A stretch of 64,000 bases of DNA from Verrucomicrobiia bacterium. Its GTDB lineage: Bacteria > Verrucomicrobiota > Verrucomicrobiia > Verrucomicrobiales > DEV007. Shown here piece by piece: positions 22,531-36,842 of the stretch. The DNA is taken from NCBI GenBank assembly GCA_030425385.1, contig JAUIAH010000001.1, positions 310,001 to 374,000 of the forward strand, read 5' to 3'. Every line of letters begins with the position of its first letter. Position 1 is the stretch's first letter. The notes under the pieces were generated by a model. That model made no database searches. It worked only from the letters and a program-made list of their open reading frames with translations, and had not been told where the DNA came from. The position numbers and the translations under genes are program-made.

Positions 22531-25500
22531 ATGCACTCAACTCTCCGAGCGTTCAGCTTCACATTCATCCTAACATTCTCGTTGTGCTCCGGCGCGGATT
22601 GGCCCATGTGGCGGGCCGATGCTGGACATACTGCTGTGTCCGAAGAGACACTGGCAGATCAGCTGCATTTGCAATGGATCTTGACCTTCTCCGAACGGAA
22701 ACGCGTTTGGGATGATCCGCTCAACCACGACTTGATGTCTTACGACAAGGTCTTAGAGCCAATCGTGCTCGGTGATTTGCTATTTGTCAGTCTCGCCGAC
22801 AAAGACAAGCTCTCCGCATTCGATATCGAATCGGGTGAGGAGAGGTGGTCTTTCTACGCGGATGGGCCCCTCCGATTCGCACCGGTCGGTTGGCGAGACA
22901 AGGTCTACGTCTGTAGTGATGATGGCTATCTTTACTGTCTCGGGGCACGCGATGGCGGCCTGCAATGGAAGTTTCGGGGTGCGCCTAGTGATCGCAAAGC
23001 GTTGGGGAACGAACGCGTTATTTCCACCTGGCCCGCTCGGGGTGGTCCAGTGATTCGGGACGGCGTGGTCTACTTCGCTGCGAGCATCTGGCCCTTCATG
23101 GGCACTTTCATCTACGCTCTGGAAGCCCACTCGGGAGATGTCGTCTGGGTGAATGATGGGACGGGAGCCGACTATATCAAGCAACCCCACAGCGCCCCAT
23201 CATTTGCCGGAGTCGCGCCGCAAGGCACCTTGGTTGCCTTGAAAGATCATCTGTTAGTGCCGGGCGGTCGGTCGGTCCCCGCAGCGTTTGATCGCGAGAC
23301 GGGTGCGCTCGTGCATTTCCACCTCAACGATGGTGGCAAGGCCAACGGCGGGTCGTTTGTGGCTGGGCTAGGAGAGCGTTTCTATGTCCACACGCGGTAT
23401 CGCGGCGTGCGCGCATATGAAACGAAGTCAGGAAAGAAGACGGGATTCACATTGAATGAACCCGTGCTCACGGAGAACCTGATCTACACGGCGGCGGCGC
23501 AGCCCGATCTCAAGACGCGGCTGGAGGCAGCCACCAAGGCAGCGAAAGATGCAGAGGCGGATTGGAAGAAGGCTGCCAAGAAGCTCGACACCGCCTTGGC
23601 CGACAAGACGCGTCCGTTGACAGAACCTCAGAAGGCTTTCGACGAGGCAACAGCCGCCCATGAGAAGGCGGCTCATGCCCTGGAAGAATTAGCGATTTCG
23701 TTAGACAAAGAGGACCCCTTTGTCAAAGAAGCTGAGACGACGCTGAGCAAGGCGAAGAAAGCCATGGACGAGGCGAAGAAGAAGCTTGAGAGCGCGAAGA
23801 AGAAGCGTCGAGATCCCATCGACAAGAAGCTGATTGAGGAAGAGGCCAAACAAGAATTGAGACTTTGTGAGAAGGCCCTGGCCCATCACGCCCTGGCCCA
23901 AGAATGGGCCACTCGTGGACGCGATGTCCGTGTCGTGCAGGCCTACGATGCGAAGAACGCCTTGCAGTGGGAGTTTGAAGCCGACGCCTCAGGAGATCTC
24001 ATCAAGGCCGGTGATCATCTCTACGCCGCAGGTCCAGACGAGATTGTGGCGGTGAGCCTCACGGAGAACAAAGTCACTTGGAAACATGCTATCGATGGCG
24101 AGGTGCTGCGCTTGTTAGCCGCCAATGGCAAACTCTTCGCCGTCACCTTGGACGGCCGCATTCTATGTTATGGAGCGGATCGGCAACGCGACCCGCGCAA
24201 GCCCCTCTTGAAAGTGGCCGCCGACAAGGCTTGGCCGTTCTCCAAGAGTGCCGACAACAAGTTGGCCCGCCAAGTACTGGCCCTGGCAGATGCCGATGAA
24301 GGGTATGCGCTCGCCTTCGGCGTGGATGACGGGCGGATGCTAGAAGCGTTTGCAGAAGAGTCATCGATGCATTTCGTCGCCACCGATCCTGACGAAGCCA
24401 CCGTGAATGGATTGCGCCGCAAGTATGACTACATGGATCTCTATGGGGAACGCATCGTTCTCCAGCAAGGCGATCCCCAACAGTTCCAGGCCCCACCTTA
24501 TCTCTTCAATCTTGTCATGCTAGGGGATGCCACCGCGGCGCGCTTGCACGATCCGGCCACCATCCGGCTGATCTACGAATCGGTCCGGCCCTACGGTGGA
24601 GCGCTATGGTTTCGTCAAGAAGCACGCTTAAGAGCATTAATTACATCGTTAGACCTTCCTGGCGCGGAAGTCATGTCAGGGCCTCAGGGGAGCACGTTTG
24701 TCTTTCGGCAAGGACCTCTCCCGGACGCCGCTGATTGGACGCATCAGTATGGTAACATGGCTAACACGGTGAAGTCTGACGACAAGCTGGTAAAGCTTCC
24801 GTTAGGCATCTTGTGGTTTGGCGGAAGCCCTAACACGGATGTCCTCCCGCGCCACGGCCATGGACCTTCAGAGCAAGTGATCGGTGGACGCACAATCATC
24901 GAAGGCATGAATCGCCTCAGTGCCCGCGATGTCTATACCGGACGCATCTTGTGGAAGCGTGATTTCGAGAACCTTGGCACCTACGGAGTCTACTACGACC
25001 ACACCTACACGGATGATCCGTTGAACCCCGCCTACAATCAGGTGCACATTCCTGGTGCTAATGGTAGGGGAACGAATTACATCGCCACTGAAGAGGCGAT
25101 CTATGTGGCGATCGGCAGCGCCTGCCACGTCCTCGATGCCGAGACGGGTCAGGATCTCAAGATTATCGAAATGCCTCAAGCCAAGGACGCGGCCCGTGCT
25201 CCCGCGTGGGCTTTTATTGGCGTGCATGACAATCTGCTGCTGGCAGGAAATGACTTTGCCCACTTTGAGGCGCGCTATCAATTGAATGAGAAGAAGAAGA
25301 CGGACAGTAGTAAAGAGACCTCTGGACGTCACGGCAGGAAACGGAAGCGCAAGACGAGTGAAGATTCAGCGAAACCCAAGGAAGTGCCTTCCATCGAAGA
25401 CCTTTCCGCGAGCCAGGGCCTGATCGCCTTTGATCGGGAGACGGACGAAGTGTTATGGGAAGTGAAGGCCGAATTCAGTTTCCTCCACAACGGGATCGTG

Positions 25501-27924
25501 GCGGGAACGGATCTCATCTACTTGTTAGACAAATTTCCCAAGAGCGTGGAAGAGAAGCTCAAGCGCCGTGGTTTGGCCAAGCCTGAAGACTATCGCATTC
25601 TTGCTGTGGATGCCAAGACGGGTGAGAAGGTTTGGGAGCATCGGGGAGAGATCTTTGGGACTTGGTTAGCCTACTCGGCCAAGCACCACATCCTCCTTCA
25701 GGCTGGCGCCAAAGGACGGGATCGACTCAAGGATGAGGTGGGCGAAGGCCTCTTCACGTACGAAGCGGACACTGGCAAGCTCATCTGGAAGAAGCCCAAG
25801 CTGGCCTATGCCGGACCGTGCATTCTTCACAATGACCTCATTCTCACGGCCCCTGATCAGTATGCAGACTCTGCTGGCGCCTATCATTTGACTACAGGCG
25901 AAGCTTACATGATCACCAACCCTCTCACGGGCAAGAAGGAGCCTTGGCGTATCACCCGGGCTTATGGCTGCAACAATCCCATCGCCGGGGAACACTTGTT
26001 GACCTTCCGGTCTGGAGCCGCCGGCTATTACGATCTCGATAATATGAGTGGGACGGGAAACTTCGGTGGCTTCAAGTCTGGCTGCACGAGTAATCTCATT
26101 CCCGCTAACGGTGTCCTCAATGCCCCGGACTACACGCGGACGTGTAGCTGTGGCTATCAGAACCAAACCTCGCTCGCCTTGGTGCATATGCCAGATGTGG
26201 AGCTGTGGACCTACAATCGCTACGGCGTGGATGCGGATGAACACGAAGCGGTGTCTCGCGTGGGAATCAACTTCGGCGCTCCAGGTGATCGCCGAGATGG
26301 GGATGGCACCCTTTGGTTGGAACATCCCAGCGTGGGCGGATCCTCTCCGGCCGTCACGGTGACCGTGGAAGCGCCAGCGGAGGCGAAGATCGAGACGTTC
26401 CGACGCCATTCCTCACAAGTGCACACGCAGCAGAGCCTGAGCTGGGTGGCAGCCTCCGGGATCCGCAATCCCAAGAAGATCACCATCACGCCACGGATGC
26501 AGTTTCAGGCTAAGTCTAGCAAAGACAAATTAGAGATCCGCGTCAACTCAAGCAATGACGATGCCGAAGAGGCCGCAGACGGCAGTGTCGATCCCGCCAG
26601 CAGTGACTTGGAATTGGTCGAGGATGAGGGCACCCAACTCGTCGGCCTGCGTTTCGAGGACTTGGCGTTGTTCCCAGGTGAACGCATCAAGGAAGCCTAT
26701 ATCCAATTCTCCGTGGACGAGCCCGATCCGAAACTGGAGAAGGGCGAGAAGGCCCCGGAAACGGTCCTGGTCATTCACATCGAAGACGCCTCCGATGCCC
26801 CTGCATTCTCGGGCGCACCGCACGATCTGTCGTCGCGAACGCGTGTGCAGCAGCCAATCGAATGGAAGCCTAAGGCGTGGGCGAAGAAAGATGACCATGG
26901 TGGTGATCAACGCACGCCGAACCTCGCCCCGTTGTTGCAATCCGTGGTCGATCGTTCCGGCTGGGCGCTTGGCCATGCCGTCGTCTTTCTCATCGATGGA
27001 CAAGGGAAACGGGTTGCCCATGCTTATGACAAGGATCCTGGCAAAGCGCCCAGATTGGTGATTGAGTTAGAATCGATTCAGCCGCGTGTGCGGGTGGCCG
27101 CCCGCGAGGATGACGCAGAAGAGCACGCCGATGGGACGGTGAAGCTGGACAGCAGTGACCTCGAACTCACCCATGACTCGGAGAAGGAAGGCGCTCAGAC
27201 CATCGGCATCCGTTTCCGCGACTTGCAGATTCCACGCGGCCAACGCTTGGCTGGTGCCCACCTGCAGTTCACCACGAAATCCCCCTCCAAGGAGCCGACA
27301 GCACTAGAAATTCGCGTTGAGGACACCGTGGATCCACCACCGTATAAGAGCGACTCACACTTTCTCACCAGTCGAACCACGACGAGTGCCGTGATTGCCT
27401 GGCAGCCCGAGCCATGGATCGGCAAGGACCACGCGCGCTCGGCGCAGCGCAGCCCGGATCTCAGCGCGCTGATCCAGCCCCTTCTGAATCGTGACTCTTG
27501 GGAGCCTGGTCACGCGGTCAGTTTTCTCATCAGCGGCACGGGACAACGCATGCCTCATTCGTTCGACGGCAAGAAGGAACTCGCGCCCAAGCTCATGCTG
27601 CGCTACGCGGACGAGGCCTCTTCGGAATCGATCGCCATGGACGCCGCACCCCGTTTCACCGTCCGGCTCCATTTCTTTGATCCCGATCACCTCCCGGCAG
27701 GCAAACGTCAGTTTCATGTGACTCTGCAAGGACAACGCTGTCTGAGCGATCTCGATCTGGCCCATGCTCGCACGGACAAGGAAAGCGTCAGGGTAGCAGA
27801 GTTCACCAACATTCCCATTCCCCATCATCTCGATATCGAGTTCGAGGCGGAGGTGGGGCAGGAGCCGCCGGTGCTATCGGGCGTGGAGCTGATCCGGGAG
27901 GAGCCAACCGCAAGCCTGCGATAG
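22531..27924 (+). CDS. Giant exported PQQ-like propeller protein with methyltransferase-like insert and malectin/CBM-like repeats
   Basis: A 1797-residue protein with a Sec signal (MHSTLRAFSFTFILTFSLCS). The PQQ/quinoprotein-type propeller starts about 20-320 (DIESGEERWSFYADGPL). A Lys/Glu/Ala-rich coiled coil follows (325-460). A Rossmann domain resembling class I SAM methyltransferases comes next (575-715), with GYALAFGVDDGRMLEAF and FVATDPDEATVNGLRR. Propeller repeats then resume (720-1270). Two tandem beta-sandwich repeats of about 185 residues (1331-1517 and 1517-1703) share the D-A-E-E-x-A-D-G-x-V-x-x-x-S-S-D-L-E-L motif. A C-terminal malectin-like domain (VRLHFFDPDHLPAGK) ends the protein. 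It is the last gene of the ABC operon and probably acts outside the inner membrane. Catalysis is unproven. Confidence 0.85.
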   Translation: MHSTLRAFSFTFILTFSLCSGADWPMWRADAGHTAVSEETLADQLHLQWILTFSERKRVWDDPLNHDLMSYDKVLEPIVLGDLLFVSLADKDKLSAFDIESGEERWSFYADGPLRFAPVGWRDKVYVCSDDGYLYCLGARDGGLQWKFRGAPSDRKALGNERVISTWPARGGPVIRDGVVYFAASIWPFMGTFIYALEAHSGDVVWVNDGTGADYIKQPHSAPSFAGVAPQGTLVALKDHLLVPGGRSVPAAFDRETGALVHFHLNDGGKANGGSFVAGLGERFYVHTRYRGVRAYETKSGKKTGFTLNEPVLTENLIYTAAAQPDLKTRLEAATKAAKDAEADWKKAAKKLDTALADKTRPLTEPQKAFDEATAAHEKAAHALEELAISLDKEDPFVKEAETTLSKAKKAMDEAKKKLESAKKKRRDPIDKKLIEEEAKQELRLCEKALAHHALAQEWATRGRDVRVVQAYDAKNALQWEFEADASGDLIKAGDHLYAAGPDEIVAVSLTENKVTWKHAIDGEVLRLLAANGKLFAVTLDGRILCYGADRQRDPRKPLLKVAADKAWPFSKSADNKLARQVLALADADEGYALAFGVDDGRMLEAFAEESSMHFVATDPDEATVNGLRRKYDYMDLYGERIVLQQGDPQQFQAPPYLFNLVMLGDATAARLHDPATIRLIYESVRPYGGALWFRQEARLRALITSLDLPGAEVMSGPQGSTFVFRQGPLPDAADWTHQYGNMANTVKSDDKLVKLPLGILWFGGSPNTDVLPRHGHGPSEQVIGGRTIIEGMNRLSARDVYTGRILWKRDFENLGTYGVYYDHTYTDDPLNPAYNQVHIPGANGRGTNYIATEEAIYVAIGSACHVLDAETGQDLKIIEMPQAKDAARAPAWAFIGVHDNLLLAGNDFAHFEARYQLNEKKKTDSSKETSGRHGRKRKRKTSEDSAKPKEVPSIEDLSASQGLIAFDRETDEVLWEVKAEFSFLHNGIVAGTDLIYLLDKFPKSVEEKLKRRGLAKPEDYRILAVDAKTGEKVWEHRGEIFGTWLAYSAKHHILLQAGAKGRDRLKDEVGEGLFTYEADTGKLIWKKPKLAYAGPCILHNDLILTAPDQYADSAGAYHLTTGEAYMITNPLTGKKEPWRITRAYGCNNPIAGEHLLTFRSGAAGYYDLDNMSGTGNFGGFKSGCTSNLIPANGVLNAPDYTRTCSCGYQNQTSLALVHMPDVELWTYNRYGVDADEHEAVSRVGINFGAPGDRRDGDGTLWLEHPSVGGSSPAVTVTVEAPAEAKIETFRRHSSQVHTQQSLSWVAASGIRNPKKITITPRMQFQAKSSKDKLEIRVNSSNDDAEEAADGSVDPASSDLELVEDEGTQLVGLRFEDLALFPGERIKEAYIQFSVDEPDPKLEKGEKAPETVLVIHIEDASDAPAFSGAPHDLSSRTRVQQPIEWKPKAWAKKDDHGGDQRTPNLAPLLQSVVDRSGWALGHAVVFLIDGQGKRVAHAYDKDPGKAPRLVIELESIQPRVRVAAREDDAEEHADGTVKLDSSDLELTHDSEKEGAQTIGIRFRDLQIPRGQRLAGAHLQFTTKSPSKEPTALEIRVEDTVDPPPYKSDSHFLTSRTTTSAVIAWQPEPWIGKDHARSAQRSPDLSALIQPLLNRDSWEPGHAVSFLISGTGQRMPHSFDGKKELAPKLMLRYADEASSESIAMDAAPRFTVRLHFFDPDHLPAGKRQFHVTLQGQRCLSDLDLAHARTDKESVRVAEFTNIPIPHHLDIEFEAEVGQEPPVLSGVELIREEPTASLR

Positions 27925-30398: not shown

Positions 30399-33300
30399 TC
30401 ACTGGGCGTAGGGCTGACCCGCCTGGTATTTCTTGAGGGCCATTTGCAGGCTTTGCCGTAGAGCTTGGTTTCCTTGTTGTCGTGCGAGGGCGATCCCGCG
30501 TTGTGTGGCGGCGACGGCTTTCTCAAAAGCGCCAGCCTCAGCGTAGGCTGCAGCAAGGGTGTCGAGGACTCCGGGATCGTTCTGTGCGGTGAGATGCGTG
30601 GCTCTCTCCGCCCACCGGACGGCTTCCGTTCCGTTCCGTATGGTTTTGTCAGGGTGCGTGGCCAGTTGCCATGCCAGGTTGTTGAGCACGAGGACATTCT
30701 TATCATCCTCCGCCAGGGCGGCTCGATAGTGGGCCATGCCTTCTTTCGGGCGCTTCTTCGCAATAAACCCATCACCGATCCAGGTGAGTAACTTGCCGTA
30801 CTCGCTGCTCCGGGCTTGGAACGTGGCCTTGCCTCGTTGCGCGAGTTCAGCAGCGTCTTCCACCTGCCCGTGATCCATGAGGTCGAGGCCCAAGAGGATG
30901 GGATCGAGCGGTTGAGGCCTCACATACCATTGCCCTGGAAATGGCAATGAGGCATCGTGCCAAGCTTCCCACGCGCCGGCCGCCTGCCTGGCATCGGTGA
31001 GGATCCGCTCTATCGGGACAGCGCCTTTATAGAAGGCGAGGACGGCGCCCTGCTGGTCTAACAAGACACTTGTCGGCACAGGAAGTGCCCACTGCGGTCC
31101 GAAGAGACGTGCGTAGAGGACTTCCAAGCGGCGAACCGTTTCCGCCGTGGCGCGGCCACCCGTGAACGGGAGCTTGAGACGCCTGAAATAGGCTGCTGGA
31201 TCAGCATCCGATGCCGCGGTGGCATCCCCAACTTGCAAGCCATCCACGGACAGGGCAACCACATCGATATTCGCCTTCTCCAGCGCCTTAGCGTTCTGTG
31301 AGAATGCTTTCAGTTCCGCCACACAAGGCACACACCAAGTGGCCCAAAGGTTGACCAAGGTGTGTTTGTCAGAGGCACCACCGGCGTAGGCTGGGCGCCC
31401 GTCCCAGGTCGTGTAGGGCAATCGAGGGAGCGGCCATCGCGACGGCGTGACGGCATGCGCGGTTCCAGAAACCGTCTCAGCAGAAGGCGCCTCCGAGGCA
31501 GCCAACGCAATCGTCTTTGGGCCCGTGACCGGTTGAGCCCTTCCCGTGCCCTGCACGAGTCGATAGCGTCCGCTGAGCGGTGCCTCAGTGAAGCGCTCGC
31601 GCGCGCCTCCCGGCCAGTGCACCTCGATCCGCGCGATGCCAGCCGTGCTGCCCAACCCGAAGTGAAGCCACTTGCTCGATTGACTGAGAAACCCATCGCC
31701 AGCTTTGAGTGTCTTGGTTAGGCTTCGCCCCTCCGCTAGAGTGACCACCACCCGCGCGCCGATCCCATCGCGATTGCTTTGCTTCCCTTGTAAGCGGAAC
31801 GCCACCCAGGTGGACGCCGCCTGCTCTTGGAGTTGATTCCGCACCAATCGCAGCATCGGTGCCGTGCGATTGGTGATCCAGAAGTCGAGATCGCCATCAC
31901 GGTCCCAATCCACGGCAGCAGTCGCCCTGGCATCATCATCGAAATCGAGCCCCAGAGCGGCACTGGCCGTGACGAACCGACGCGTTTCCGATCCTGGCAG
32001 AGGCACATTGAGAAAGGCACAGTTGCGTTCGTGACCACTGAGGGAAACACCCTGGTCCATGAGCGTGTCCAACTGCATCAAGGCTTTGCGATAAGGCGCT
32101 TCGCGGCTCTTGACCTGGGCCAGATCCCCCGCGTCGAGTGGCGAAGACGGCAGAACCTGCCGCCAATAGAAACTTCACAAATCGTCCGGCACTCTTCCCG
32201 TGACGAAGCCATTGGCGACAAGGAGATCTTCCCAGCCATCGTTGTTCATGTCCGCAAAGATCGATCCCCAACTCCAGCGGCCCATCGTCGCTCCAGTGGC
32301 CATGCTGACATCCTCGAACACCCCTTGCCGTCCGGTGTTCCGAAAGAGACTGTTGCCCCGCGCCATGCGTTGCGAACGCTCTAACAAATCCTTTGACGTT
32401 CCTGGCAGGAAGTTTGGCTGCGTCGTCACGCGACTGCCAGCAGCGGAGAACATGTTGCCCGCGTAGAGATCTGGTCGGCCATCGCCATCATAATCGGCTG
32501 AGGCAGCCGACATGCCGAAACTCCCGTCATCGATCCCAGCCGCTTTGGCATGATCCCGGAAATGCCCACTTTCATTGAGATAAAGATTCTTGAGTCCAAA
32601 GTCATTGGCCACAAATAGATCCTGGTCGCCATCGAGATCCACGTCTTCCCAGGTCGCAGCGAAGGAGAACCGTGTGTTGTTCGCTTCCGCCAACCCACTT
32701 TCGGCCGTGGCATCCGTGAAGTTGAGCCATCGATCTGCCGTCGTCGCCGCGCCATCATTGCGAATGAGGAAGTTGCCTCCTCCGTTGTTCGCATCAAAGT
32801 AAGGGACCGGCACCGCGAGATCCGCGCCTTCGTCCTTGTTTGCAAAGTAACGGCATACGTAAAGATCGAGATCGCCGTCATTGTCGTAATCAGCCGCGCT
32901 CACACTGAACGCATTGCGAACAGGTCGATAGCGTAGCTTGGCCTCGAACCTGCCGGAGCCATTATTGCGAAAGGCCAGCAACCCGGTGTCTGCAGCCAAG
33001 ACCAAATCCTGATCGCCGTCATTGTCGAGATCCACGAGCAAGGCGGACCGCGTCAGGTCGAGCAAGTCTACTCCCATCTCCGCAGCCACATCGATGGCGG
33101 TGCCGTCAGGCTGCTGTACGAACAGGCGGTTCGGCAAGCCGCCGTTCTGACAGACATACACATCATCACGTCCATCGCCATTCACATCGCCTACCGCCAC
33201 GCCTTGATGGCCAAACTTGAAGAACCGATTGAAGAGTTCGATGCGTTGCCGCCAATAGGTATTCCCATGACGCAGGTGTTTCTGATAGGCCTCGGTCCCT

Positions 33301-33896
33301 CCGAGAACGGCGGCGGTGGCATCGACAAAGGACGGCTGATTCCCCTCCGTCTTGACCAGAATTTCTTCATAATGGGCCAGCTCCAGGTCGCGAATGCGTG
33401 GCACGTCTGCGTCCGTGGCAGGCGTTTCCCAGGTCACCTGCCATCGCATGTTGATCTCCAGGAGACCTTCTGCCGTCTTTCCCGCCAGGGTCACCAAGGC
33501 ATCCGTCACGGGAGCGGACCCTGACAGGTCCACACTGACAAGTTTAAACTTCGTGCGACTGAGCGTCTCCGTGAAGGGCTCTAACAAAGCCGCCCAGGGC
33601 GAGGAGTTCGGCGCGGGCCGAGCGGCAGGTTTCCCAAAGGCGACTCGAACGCGTGCGTCATCGACAACCACCTCTCTTTCTGGGCGTAAGTTTGGAAGGG
33701 AGGGCGTTCGGCTCAGCACTCCGGAGGCTGGCGCTTTCCGCTCATGGAGCGCTTTGCCCAGGGCTTTGAGCTGGGTCAGGGCAACTTCCGAGAAGGCCTC
33801 ACTTCGCCACGCCTGAGGAATGCCCGGGGCCTCTTGGGCGGCGAGCGCGCAGGGGAAGAGCATAATGACCAGGCAAAGCCGCGGGAGGAATGACAT
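30399..33896 (-). CDS. Candidate selenoprotein: secreted FG-GAP/UnbV - thioredoxin-like - TPR fusion with in-frame UGA
   Basis: One 1166-codon frame from ATG 33896 to TGA 30401-30399, interrupted only by a TGA at 32177-32175 (codon 574). Both sides are in the same frame, and the codons after the TGA stay open (S-F-Y-W-R-Q-V-L-P) into the next conserved block. Layout: signal peptide MSFLPRLCLVIMLFPCALAA; FG-GAP/VCBS propeller with Asp-rich calcium loops (about 228-573, e.g. VGDVNGDGRDDVYV); UGA; ASPIC/UnbV domain (about 670-785); TlpA/thioredoxin-like domain with WCVPC (Cys855, Cys858); TPR repeats (about 1035-1160). A SECIS-like hairpin follows the UGA. I interpret UGA as selenocysteine. The alternatives are a nonsense mutation or two separate proteins restarting near 32081. 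An exported redox role is inferred. Confidence 0.72.
32146..32164 (-). promoter_or_regulatory. Bacterial SECIS-like hairpin downstream of the in-frame UGA
   Basis: Read on the minus strand, CGGCAG pairs perfectly with CTGCCG around a GTT loop, extended by a G-U and a G-C pair to 8 bp. The loop begins with G then U, as bacterial SECIS loops do, and 18 nt separate the UGA from the loop G. In E. coli fdhF the corresponding loop also follows GCA and begins GGU at nearly the same distance. This is what SelB would need to recode UGA. Confidence 0.65.
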
Positions 33897-33946: not shown

Positions 33947-35083
33947 TCAGTCACCAATCCTGAATGGGATAGAGACCACCGTCGGCTTCGTCGTTGGGTC
34001 ATCGATCTTCTCGAAGATATCGACCTCGAACCGCTTGCCGATGTTGTTCCCAGCCAGATCCTCGATGATGGCAGGCACCATCACCTTGTATTCCCCGGGT
34101 GACCAGGGATCCTTGGGTTCCAAGACCCACCGCCGCTCGTCGTCATGCAAGCGCACGTCACCCACCACATGAGCTACTCGGATCAAGCGCTTTGCTAGAG
34201 CAGCCTCCATCGGTTCTGGGAAGGTGATGGAAAGCGGATCTCGCGTGTTCGCCTTCGGCGGAGCAATGACCCACTGGGTAGGGTTTGGCGGGTCACGATC
34301 GGGTGAACCAACGCGAAAGGTTTTCTGATAGGCTTCCTTCAACGGTAGCCCCTCAGCATCCAGCCAATTCGCATCAATGGTAAGGGTGTATTCGGACCCT
34401 GCTTGGAGCGAAGGGCCAAGATCTTCCAGGGGCTTCACGCCTCGCTTGATCCGACCTGGATCGATGAATAGTGTGAGCCGCCTCATCTCCGGACTCCAAA
34501 GCTCCTCATCGATCTCAAGAAAGGGCAATTCCACCTCTTTCCCTTCCGCATCCGTCAGGTGAATGTGGTCATAGACGTCACCTCGACTCATGGGCGCTGA
34601 GAAATGGAGATAGAATTTCAGCAGATTCTCTGGGAGGACATTGCTACTGGGATAAATGTGAGAAACCACCGTGATAGGCGTCGTGCGTTCGCGAGGCACG
34701 TCGAAACGGACCACGAGCGGCTTCCCTTCCGTCTTCAACGTAGCGCGGTAACGGAGCCCTGGTTGCAACCCAAACTGCGGGATGAAACGCACGCCTCCTT
34801 TGGTCGTTTGATAGGATCCCAACATCGGGGGCGTCCTCAGAGCCGTGTGCAGATCCTCATGCACCACGTGCACGGTGAGGACTGTCTCCCACTTTTCGGG
34901 TGCACCAGCGTCCCACCCTTCCACGTCGACGTAGGCCTCGCGAGGATCGCCTTCGGCCACCCAGCGCAGCGTGGGGGAGGGTGTGTCCGTCTCCGGCGCG
35001 GCACCGCTTGTCATCAGCGCGAGGCCGTGCGCTGCCAGCGCGCCGATCATCAGCGCGCTGGCAGAAACCCTTGTGAGGCTCAC
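33947..35083 (-). CDS. Secreted Ig-like (Big_5 type) domain protein
   Basis: A 378-residue exported protein starting at GTG, which overlaps the upstream stop (GTGA). The N-terminus (ASALMIGALAAHGLALMTSG) is a signal peptide. The body holds two or more bacterial Ig-like regions: LPENLLKFYLHFSAPMSRGDV and PLSITFPEPMEAAL are typical Big_5 strands, each followed by a W/L-P-G-EY type ending (SPGEYKVMVPAIIEDLAGN). No catalytic motif is visible. It lies between a propeller-like protein and the selenoprotein candidate in one minus-strand operon, so it is probably a periplasmic or surface component of the same system. Confidence 0.7.
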   Translation of the reverse strand: MSLTRVSASALMIGALAAHGLALMTSGAAPETDTPSPTLRWVAEGDPREAYVDVEGWDAGAPEKWETVLTVHVVHEDLHTALRTPPMLGSYQTTKGGVRFIPQFGLQPGLRYRATLKTEGKPLVVRFDVPRERTTPITVVSHIYPSSNVLPENLLKFYLHFSAPMSRGDVYDHIHLTDAEGKEVELPFLEIDEELWSPEMRRLTLFIDPGRIKRGVKPLEDLGPSLQAGSEYTLTIDANWLDAEGLPLKEAYQKTFRVGSPDRDPPNPTQWVIAPPKANTRDPLSITFPEPMEAALAKRLIRVAHVVGDVRLHDDERRWVLEPKDPWSPGEYKVMVPAIIEDLAGNNIGKRFEVDIFEKIDDPTTKPTVVSIPFRIGD

Positions 35084-36183
35084 GGGAGTGCGAGCGATTC
35101 CAGATTCTGGCTGTCCTCACTGGTGGCGCGCAAGACGAGTGCCTGCGCATCATCCAACTGATCCAATTGACGGATCCCTTCCCAGCTATCGATCGTGTTG
35201 TAAGTCACGCCGCCCGTGCCGCGCACACGATCTTCGATGCTACCCGCGCCCGCAATCTGGCTCGCATCAATCTTCATGATTCCACGATTATTGTTCGCTA
35301 GCAGGAGGTAGTCCTTGCCGTCCTTCTGATAGACGATCATGTCGAGCGGTCGATTACGATTGCCCAGCTCCGCGATGGTCTTCCCTTTGATCTGCGCTCC
35401 AGGCTTGAGGCTTTTGACAGGGAACTGTACGAGGGGTGTGCAGGTGTAAGCGGCTAACAAATGCGGTTCCTCACCAATGGTGAAGGGGACAAAGGTGCGC
35501 ACGGGCGAGCGCGTTTCAAAGCGTCCATGCGCCCCATGGAAGATCTCCACCGTGGTGCCGCCTTCGATGTTCTTGAAGGGAAACGGAATGGCGCGGAAAG
35601 AGGAGGCAAACTCCTCATTAGCCAATCCCGCGATCAACACGCGATCCTGAAAGAAGGCGAGATCGGTGATCGACTCCGTCCTTGGATTGCGTCGCCCAGA
35701 ATCGTCATCGGCAGGAGCATCCGGCAACTGCGCCACGGCGTGCTTCACCTTCTCTAGCGAAACCACCTCAGGCATGCCCTCACTCCCCACTCGCACAAGG
35801 ATAGGCTTCGCTTCCGGGCCCCGACCTCGGGACACGGCAAGGTAGGCCTTCCGTGACAAGGGATTCACCGCCAGGTCATCGATCAAGATCTGATCGGCTC
35901 CGACGCCTAGCATACCGGCGAGTTTGACGTTGATCGCCTCTACCTTGATCGTCTTGGCGCCCTCAGCCTTCTCGGTGTCGCCGGTGGCAATCGCCGTCAC
36001 CGTGGCGGAAAGCGCGTCGCCCACCAGAAGGATGCCTTCCGGTCCGAAGGCGAGCGGTCCCATGGATTGAAAGGTGACCTTGCCTTCCGTCATCCCGGAC
36101 GTCCAGTCAGTAGCCTTGGCAGGAAATAGCGTCACCTGGCAGGCAAGGCATGCCGCCAAGGATAGAAATGATAGATTTCTCAT
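35080..36183 (-). CDS. Exported propeller-like protein, unknown function
   Basis: About 367 residues from ATG 36183 (MRNLSFLSLAACLACQVTLF), which gives a signal peptide; a lipobox reading L-A-A-C is possible. Beta-strand-rich blocks recur (MGPLAFGPEGILLVGDALSA, DDLAVNPLSRKAYLAVSRG, LDMIVYQKDGKDYLLLANN), consistent with a propeller of the NHL/YVTN kind, but no named family is recognised. It follows the small cytochrome gene by 20 nt and overlaps the next gene by 4 nt. A CTAACA copy sits in its leader, two bases before the ATG (minus strand). Confidence 0.65.
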   Translation of the reverse strand: MRNLSFLSLAACLACQVTLFPAKATDWTSGMTEGKVTFQSMGPLAFGPEGILLVGDALSATVTAIATGDTEKAEGAKTIKVEAINVKLAGMLGVGADQILIDDLAVNPLSRKAYLAVSRGRGPEAKPILVRVGSEGMPEVVSLEKVKHAVAQLPDAPADDDSGRRNPRTESITDLAFFQDRVLIAGLANEEFASSFRAIPFPFKNIEGGTTVEIFHGAHGRFETRSPVRTFVPFTIGEEPHLLAAYTCTPLVQFPVKSLKPGAQIKGKTIAELGNRNRPLDMIVYQKDGKDYLLLANNNRGIMKIDASQIAGAGSIEDRVRGTGGVTYNTIDSWEGIRQLDQLDDAQALVLRATSEDSQNLESLALP

Positions 36184-36203
36184 GATGTTAGGTTCGGTTG
36201 AAA

Positions 36204-36608
36204 TCAATCAGGCTTGTGATCGCTATGGCAGGCTTTGCAATTGGAAGCCGTCTTGAGCATCTCGCGAGCCCCATCGCGCTCCGCATAGACGTAGATCGCG
36301 GCTTTGGTTAGGGCATCCGTCTTCTCTTTCCAACTCGCGGCCTCCCCCTCTGGCGCTTCGTGTTTCTCAAGCGTCAAGCATAGTTCAATCAATTGCTTGA
36401 TCTCATCGTCTTTCTCATCACCGGCGATGATCCGTTTGACCATGCTTTCTTTCCCTTTGAAGCCTGCTTTCATGACATCTGAGATGGATTTCCCACCCTG
36501 GGAGGATTCGCCCTCCTCGTGATCATCCGCACGAATCATGCTAGTGAAGGCGAGACTACCGCCTAGGAAGATCGCGGTGACCCCTGTGAGTTTCTTGAAT
36601 TTCATCAT
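36204..36608 (-). CDS. Small periplasmic c-type cytochrome
   Basis: About 134 residues from the ATG pair at 36608 (MMKFKKLTGVTAIFLGGSLA, a signal peptide). It is mostly helical and ends with a single haem c motif CKACH close to the C-terminus, followed by SDHKPD. A C-terminal CxxCH after a helical bundle is the layout of class II cytochromes (c' type). It would carry electrons in the periplasm. It is the first gene of the minus-strand operon that includes the selenoprotein candidate with its WCVPC thioredoxin domain, so a redox link between them is plausible but unproven. Confidence 0.75.
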   Translation of the reverse strand: MMKFKKLTGVTAIFLGGSLAFTSMIRADDHEEGESSQGGKSISDVMKAGFKGKESMVKRIIAGDEKDDEIKQLIELCLTLEKHEAPEGEAASWKEKTDALTKAAIYVYAERDGAREMLKTASNCKACHSDHKPD

Positions 36609-36842
36609 GTGTGAACGTGGATTTGTTAGGTTTGGTTGGTGTTCAGTTGGCGGCGGGGAAAGCTTCGTCAAATGGGACGTGGGCATCCTTTCATTGCAAG
36701 ATGCACAGGGCAAGCGATCCTGCTTTTATCGAAGCCCGCATTTCATGGCAAGCGTCTGGTTTCGAAACGAAGAAAGCCATGACCAAATGCTGGCGCTCCA
36801 AGCCAGACTGTCTAAACTCACGCGCGAATCCTCCCAACACCC

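Follow-up and report, generated by a model that had tools for sequence, protein, structure and literature searches.

The gene at the locus and its domains

The window analysed here, a stretch of 64,000 nucleotides, covers positions 310001-374000 of contig 55 in a genome of 8.0 Mb and 74 contigs. On the minus strand, a frame of 1165 residues extends from an ATG at 33896 to a TGA at 30401-30399 (30399-33896). Reading of the open frames places its sole internal stop, a TGA at 32177-32175, at codon 574, as stated in the preliminary description of this locus.

The frame specifies a single polypeptide with Pfam matches to FG-GAP_3, FG-GAP, UnbV_ASPIC (residues 711-774) and AhpC-TSA/Redoxin (residues 839-961) and a weak TPR match. 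The FG-GAP repeats and UnbV_ASPIC are placed across and after the UGA. All features of this gene described below are on the minus strand. By inspection, the protein starts with a signal peptide (residues 1-20, MSFLPRLCLVIMLFPCALAA; 33837-33896), of which residues 5-20 are helical in the structural model. The FG-GAP beta-propeller (residues ~187-690; 31827-33338; FG-GAP_3, E=2.2e-36) resembles that of CRTAC1 (PDB 9etn; VIA-align Z 37.8 over residues 179-784 of the model) and is followed, in the order that marks CRTAC1-like FG-GAP/UnbV proteins, by the UnbV_ASPIC domain (31575-31766; PF07593, E=1.1e-16). The C-terminal part contains a TlpA-like thioredoxin domain (residues ~840-960; 31017-31379; AhpC-TSA, E=8.3e-9, with Foldseek matches to TlpA and ResA), in which a CxxC motif is present as WCVPC (C855 and C858; 31323-31334). 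It ends in TPR helices (residues ~1025-1160; 30417-30824), for which the Pfam TPR_2 match is weak and TPR chains align at Z ~17 over residues 1021-1161 of the model. The arrangement proposed earlier from the translation (propeller, UnbV, WCVPC thioredoxin and TPRs) is borne out by these matches.

The AlphaFold2 model (madc083529b3a, from 23 sequences) has a mean pLDDT of 88.8 and a pTM of 0.88. Residue 574 is predicted to be the first residue of a helix (574-584; 32145-32177) that lies beside the final portion of the propeller. On general chemical grounds, such a place in a helix would favour a reactive selenolate. Following the loop that carries residue 574, a conserved S-x-S-G-x-E-R-N motif (residues ~618-630; 32007-32045) contains the nearly invariant residues S620, G621, E623 and N630.

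With a 281-residue query around the site, nine copies were found in the genome, each with one TGA. The propeller, UnbV domain, thioredoxin fold and TPR are present in eight of the nine (the window protein and seven paralogues), and the remaining one (L171) has the propeller and UnbV only. By inspection, most paralogues have a lipoprotein-like N-terminus instead of the signal peptide of the window protein. The apparent lipoprotein signals at the start of several paralogues suggest probable export of the family, with frequent anchoring to the membrane.

Three genes with overlapping or touching ends lie upstream (33947-36713, minus strand). They encode a Big_5-like protein, a 375-residue exported protein without a Pfam match, and a 169-residue protein with a CKACH sequence, a possible c-type haem site. 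No homologues of these adjoining genes were found near the paralogues or in the loci fetched from relatives, so the neighbourhood offers no clue to an operon. PADLOC gave no match. Elsewhere in the window (22531-27924, plus strand), a gene encodes a PQQ/BamB-type propeller protein of 1797 residues whose C-terminal part weakly matches malectin.

The UGA codon, the decoding machinery and the hairpin

The genome contains all four components of the selenocysteine machinery that were looked for. The tRNA-Sec scores 65.1 bits (Rfam cut-off 47) and is called tRNA-SeC with anticodon TCA by ARAGORN; selA scores 490.6 bits, selB 283.4 bits (658 residues, including the C-terminal half) and selD 361.2 bits. 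SelD is itself a selenoprotein, its usual catalytic position being encoded by an in-frame TGA (CGUAAK). Directly upstream of SelD (L013, G000:C23:120876-121799), a HAD-like frame is joined to it through another in-frame TGA (TDSSIUNLWRPRL), which is probably an ordinary stop.

Among 96 relatives (the sister genomes being labelled Verrucomicrobiales), the TGA-containing family occurs in 28. SelA is over the cut-off in 23 of these carriers, a fragment below the cut-off in two, and absent or below the cut-off in three, which are MAGs with a completeness of 53-59%. Of the 68 relatives without the TGA family, 20 have SelA over the cut-off. On the strict count this co-occurrence gives a Fisher p of 3e-6, a value that is approximate because of shared ancestry. 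In an Edaphobacter genome (G478), SelA is over the cut-off, yet none of its three close family members has an in-frame TGA, one of them (L175) having Gln at the site; Sec was thus lost from the family there while the machinery was retained.

The assignment of the UGA at residue 574 (32175-32177) to selenocysteine draws on the frame, the TGA column of the homologues and the family alignment. All 150 best matches listed among the relatives contain exactly one TGA (one match also has a TAA). In every fetched locus checked, this TGA occupies the same alignment column; it is invariant in 29 aligned members and is embedded in the motif D-L-U-S-[FV]-[FY]-W-R-Q-V-V. In a wider set of 149 distinct members, 81 have the UGA, with D[L/T/G] preceding it in every case. 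It had been anticipated that relatives would have UGA or Cys at this position in an unvarying D-L context; conservation of the UGA was found, while Cys, with four cases, is not the main alternative and the context is somewhat broader.

In a scan of named genomes, members with the TGA turned up in Verrucomicrobiales, Planctomycetota and Acidobacteriota, and also in one MAG labelled Dehalococcoidia (Chloroflexota), which could be a binning error. In 388 sampled genomes of the phylum, TGA members were present in one further genome only, from another class, a distribution centred, within the phylum, on the order Verrucomicrobiales. A sister genome has at least 14 family members among the matches listed. 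Tandem copies were also observed, with three short TGA members on a planctomycete contig (L076) and two long ones on a Verrucomicrobiales contig (L056). In orthologue pairs dN/dS is approximately 0.1 on both flanks of the codon (0.06-0.12 before the UGA and 0.05-0.17 after it in six pairs with unsaturated dS). An in-frame UGA inside a conserved coding frame, the hallmark of a bacterial selenoprotein gene, is present.

Just downstream of the UGA, the transcript can form a hairpin with the features of a SECIS element (32146-32164, minus strand), identified by folding, pair counts, codon bias and synonymous randomisation. The stem GGCGGCA/UGCCGUC begins approximately 10 nt past the UGA and comprises seven pairs, including the outer G-C; the loop GGUUC (32157-32153) lies 17 nt past the UGA. 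The hairpin of the preliminary description is therefore real, but its GU-first loop at 18 nt was slightly off. Rules for bacterial SECIS elements demand a loop of 3-9 nt, a stem of 4-16 bp, a G among the first two loop nucleotides, a distance of 16-37 nt from the UGA and an energy of at most -7.5 (PMC13188914). The window hairpin falls within these limits with its 7-bp stem, loop GGUUC and spacing of 17 nt, and the first 48 nt fold at -17.0.

The hairpin is also kept across the family. A six-pair stem is 86% paired across 56 distinct members, and sliding the partners abolishes the pairing. The covariation score of the stem in these 56 members is 0.275 versus 0.143 for shuffled data (0/500), with independence overstated through kinship, and compensatory double changes occur (GAGGCA/UGCCUC, GCGCCA/UGGCGC and GCGUCA/UGACGC). 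Codon usage under the hairpin is skewed relative to the remainder of each gene (GTC 81% versus 34%, GTG 94% versus 37%, TCG 83% versus 20%), with p-values that overstate independence as the members are related. The mean energy is -9.5 kcal/mol, compared to -5.05 after synonymous randomisation of the codons for these peptides. The corresponding segment has -9.5 in the 81 Sec members versus -5.9 in the 68 non-Sec members, the p-value again overstating independence due to kinship. All six pairs are formed in 61 of the 81 Sec members, and in three acidobacterial Sec members (L205, L209 and L211) the stem is, by inspection, apparently in a shifted register. RNAalifold reported no consensus structure for the 56-row alignment, which is discordant with the explicit pair counts and the single-sequence folds. 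The hairpin after the UGA is far beyond chance.

Seen in a single genome, a frame interrupted by just one stop could be taken for a pseudogene or an error of sequencing or assembly, with a protein truncated after the propeller. The odds of this are negligible: the TGA occupies the same column in every listed match from the 28 genomes, TGA members occur in four phyla (counting the Chloroflexota-labelled MAG), and dN/dS stays around 0.1 after the stop. Conservation of the column and constraint past the UGA refute this reading. It is also highly improbable that the locus encodes two proteins, the propeller ending at the UGA and a second one starting at a TTG (32081), or that the UGA is read as Trp or another standard residue. 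A downstream open reading frame with this TTG start does exist, but the SFYWRQVV directly after the UGA, ahead of any such start, is among the most conserved sequences of the protein, the propeller is complete only past the UGA, and the alignment with CRTAC1 spans it. As for a standard residue, the hairpin and the machinery fit selenocysteine, and SelA and SelB are both encoded by frames that no TGA interrupts, which indicates that UGA is not generally recoded in this genome. Both a split gene and general recoding are rejected on the conservation past the UGA and on the SelA and SelB frames.

From the UGA, the machinery, the hairpin and the coding constraint past the UGA, selenocysteine insertion is very likely. 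The preliminary description had favoured it over a broken gene, and the same four lines of evidence uphold that choice. The gene almost certainly encodes a selenoprotein, predicted to be secreted, in which UGA 574 is decoded as Sec with the help of the downstream hairpin.

Relatives without selenocysteine and the thioredoxin CxxC

In one acidobacterial class, close homologues were found in 111 of 299 genomes, some with the TGA and many without. The residues at the site in the 149 distinct members are Sec (81), Met (15), Ser (14), Glu (9), Gly, Ala and Asp (6 each), Asn and Cys (4 each), Gln (3) and His (1). Bacterial selenoproteins typically, if not universally, have homologues in which Cys replaces Sec. 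Here, Cys is present in only 4 of the 68 non-Sec members, and none of these four has the CxxC. These acidobacterial members (L238, L239, L241 and L244) read DLCSFFWRRVV and have a thioredoxin-like domain lacking the motif; Cys thus apparently fails to preserve the proposed Sec/CxxC pair. More distant relatives with Cys are L025, L052, L053 and L136. In L025, a distant short paralogue (G000:C19:135057-135776), the aligned Cys is part of another motif (KDYCSQYWCHDLYTG) and a second Cys follows five residues on, and its relatives L137-L139 have Asp or Gly at the aligned site.

In the sufficiently complete Sec members, the CxxC accompanies the thioredoxin domain in 70 of 70 cases, and seven short proteins lack the domain. 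The motif is found in none of 66 similarly complete non-Sec members, 59 of which retain a detectable thioredoxin-like domain, many of them faint (profile scores below 30 bits). The propeller and the WRQV motif are retained in the non-Sec members. Several genomes contain both types, such as G564 with Glu in L184 and Sec in L206, so disappearance of the Sec machinery does not simply explain the change. The tree shows one large event in which Sec and CxxC were lost, and perhaps another (L247); the site subsequently changed freely, approximately 21 times. A test of independent pairs for Sec versus CxxC had only 1-2 pairs on the tree and no power. The joint presence and joint loss point to a Sec/CxxC redox pair, though they amount to nearly a single evolutionary experiment (1-2 events).

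The selenocysteine could instead have a metal-binding or structural role, with no redox cycle involving the fused thioredoxin domain. FG-GAP propellers are metal-binding folds, seven Sec members do without the thioredoxin domain, and the propeller and WRQV motif persist where Sec is lost, all of which would fit such a role. We nevertheless consider it unlikely, given that the CxxC accompanies Sec in every member with the domain and is absent from all non-Sec members, and that the site appears free to vary once Sec is lost, without a preference for the ligands Cys, Asp or His.

Proposed mechanism, novelty and known systems

The redox reading can be summarized as follows. SelB and tRNA-Sec almost certainly decode the UGA at codon 574, aided by the hairpin just downstream, and place Sec at the start of a helix, within the conserved D-L-U-S-F-x-W-R and S-G-x-E-R-N motifs of the CRTAC1-like propeller. 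The selenolate may act by redox chemistry on a substrate outside the cytoplasm, after which the fused CxxC thioredoxin domain would re-reduce the oxidised selenium; the short Sec members lacking this domain would require a separate reductant. We regard such a redox step with recycling by the fused domain as the likeliest mechanism, and as reasonably probable. The combined explanation, a secreted CRTAC1-like propeller selenoprotein whose Sec is recycled by its own thioredoxin domain, is well favoured by the data.

The source genomes of the family are nearly all MAGs, and the evidence is drawn from nucleotide sequence and predicted structure. A 2026 review of prokaryotic selenoproteins tabulates 119 families and subfamilies, none of which is an FG-GAP/UnbV protein (PMC13188914). 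NCBIfam 20.0 has no match over the cut-off for the window protein and a single weak one for the aligned core (XAC2610_fam, best E 0.00019, in 9 of 29 members), and the new families of the deep-Sep paper do not include this one. In the searchable literature (preprints, subscription papers and supplements lying outside the search), selenoprotein and UnbV, or selenocysteine and VCBS, never occur together, and co-occurrences with FG-GAP or CRTAC1 are unrelated, as judged by title and abstract. A 2016 planctomycete genome paper has its selenoprotein candidates in a supplementary table, and its main text names no FG-GAP or UnbV protein (PMC4807772). The earlier remark that no bacterial selenoprotein of this architecture is known to have been described agrees with these sources. 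The propeller-thioredoxin Sec family is apparently undescribed, with earlier notice possible outside the searched literature.

Current discovery methods rely on Cys/Sec pairs (PMC13188914), which fits this family's having been overlooked and suggests a likely blind spot, as such methods tend to miss families in which Sec is replaced by nearly anything but Cys. In public genomes, genes of the family probably appear as truncated or split annotations. The family adds a large group of selenoproteins on the propeller fold, a fold without an entry in the current catalogue, and the joint presence and loss of Sec and CxxC offers a mechanism open to direct test in a propeller family that also occurs in animals (CRTAC1). 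On balance, with only a slight lean towards it, these proteins may represent widespread and self-contained extracytoplasmic selenoenzymes, so far undescribed, in which a catalytic propeller Sec that Cys does not replace is recycled by a fused thioredoxin domain, and which have repeatedly multiplied inside individual genomes of Verrucomicrobiota, Planctomycetota and Acidobacteriota.

The closest structural relative is CRTAC1 (cartilage acidic protein 1), with which the propeller and UnbV fold are shared (468 residues, rmsd 2.4, 22% identity); its VIA-align score is well above the next rows at ~25, and it is also matched by sequence profile (E=9.6e-22). In contrast to CRTAC1 and the bacterial FG-GAP/UnbV_ASPIC proteins, the present family has fused thioredoxin and TPR domains and a Sec-loop motif of its own, which does not align with CRTAC1 at the sequence level. 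The C-terminal domain has the same fold, by Foldseek, as TlpA (4txo, 1jfu) and ResA, with a WCxxC-type motif; unlike in these proteins, the thioredoxin is here one domain of a propeller protein and has no Sec of its own, the Sec being located 281 residues upstream. With the known thioredoxin-like selenoproteins (the UGC-containing TlpA family and Trx UxxC; PMC13188914), the family shares UGA decoding by SelB, a bacterial SECIS and a probable redox role, but it differs from them in that Cys is not the usual replacement for Sec.
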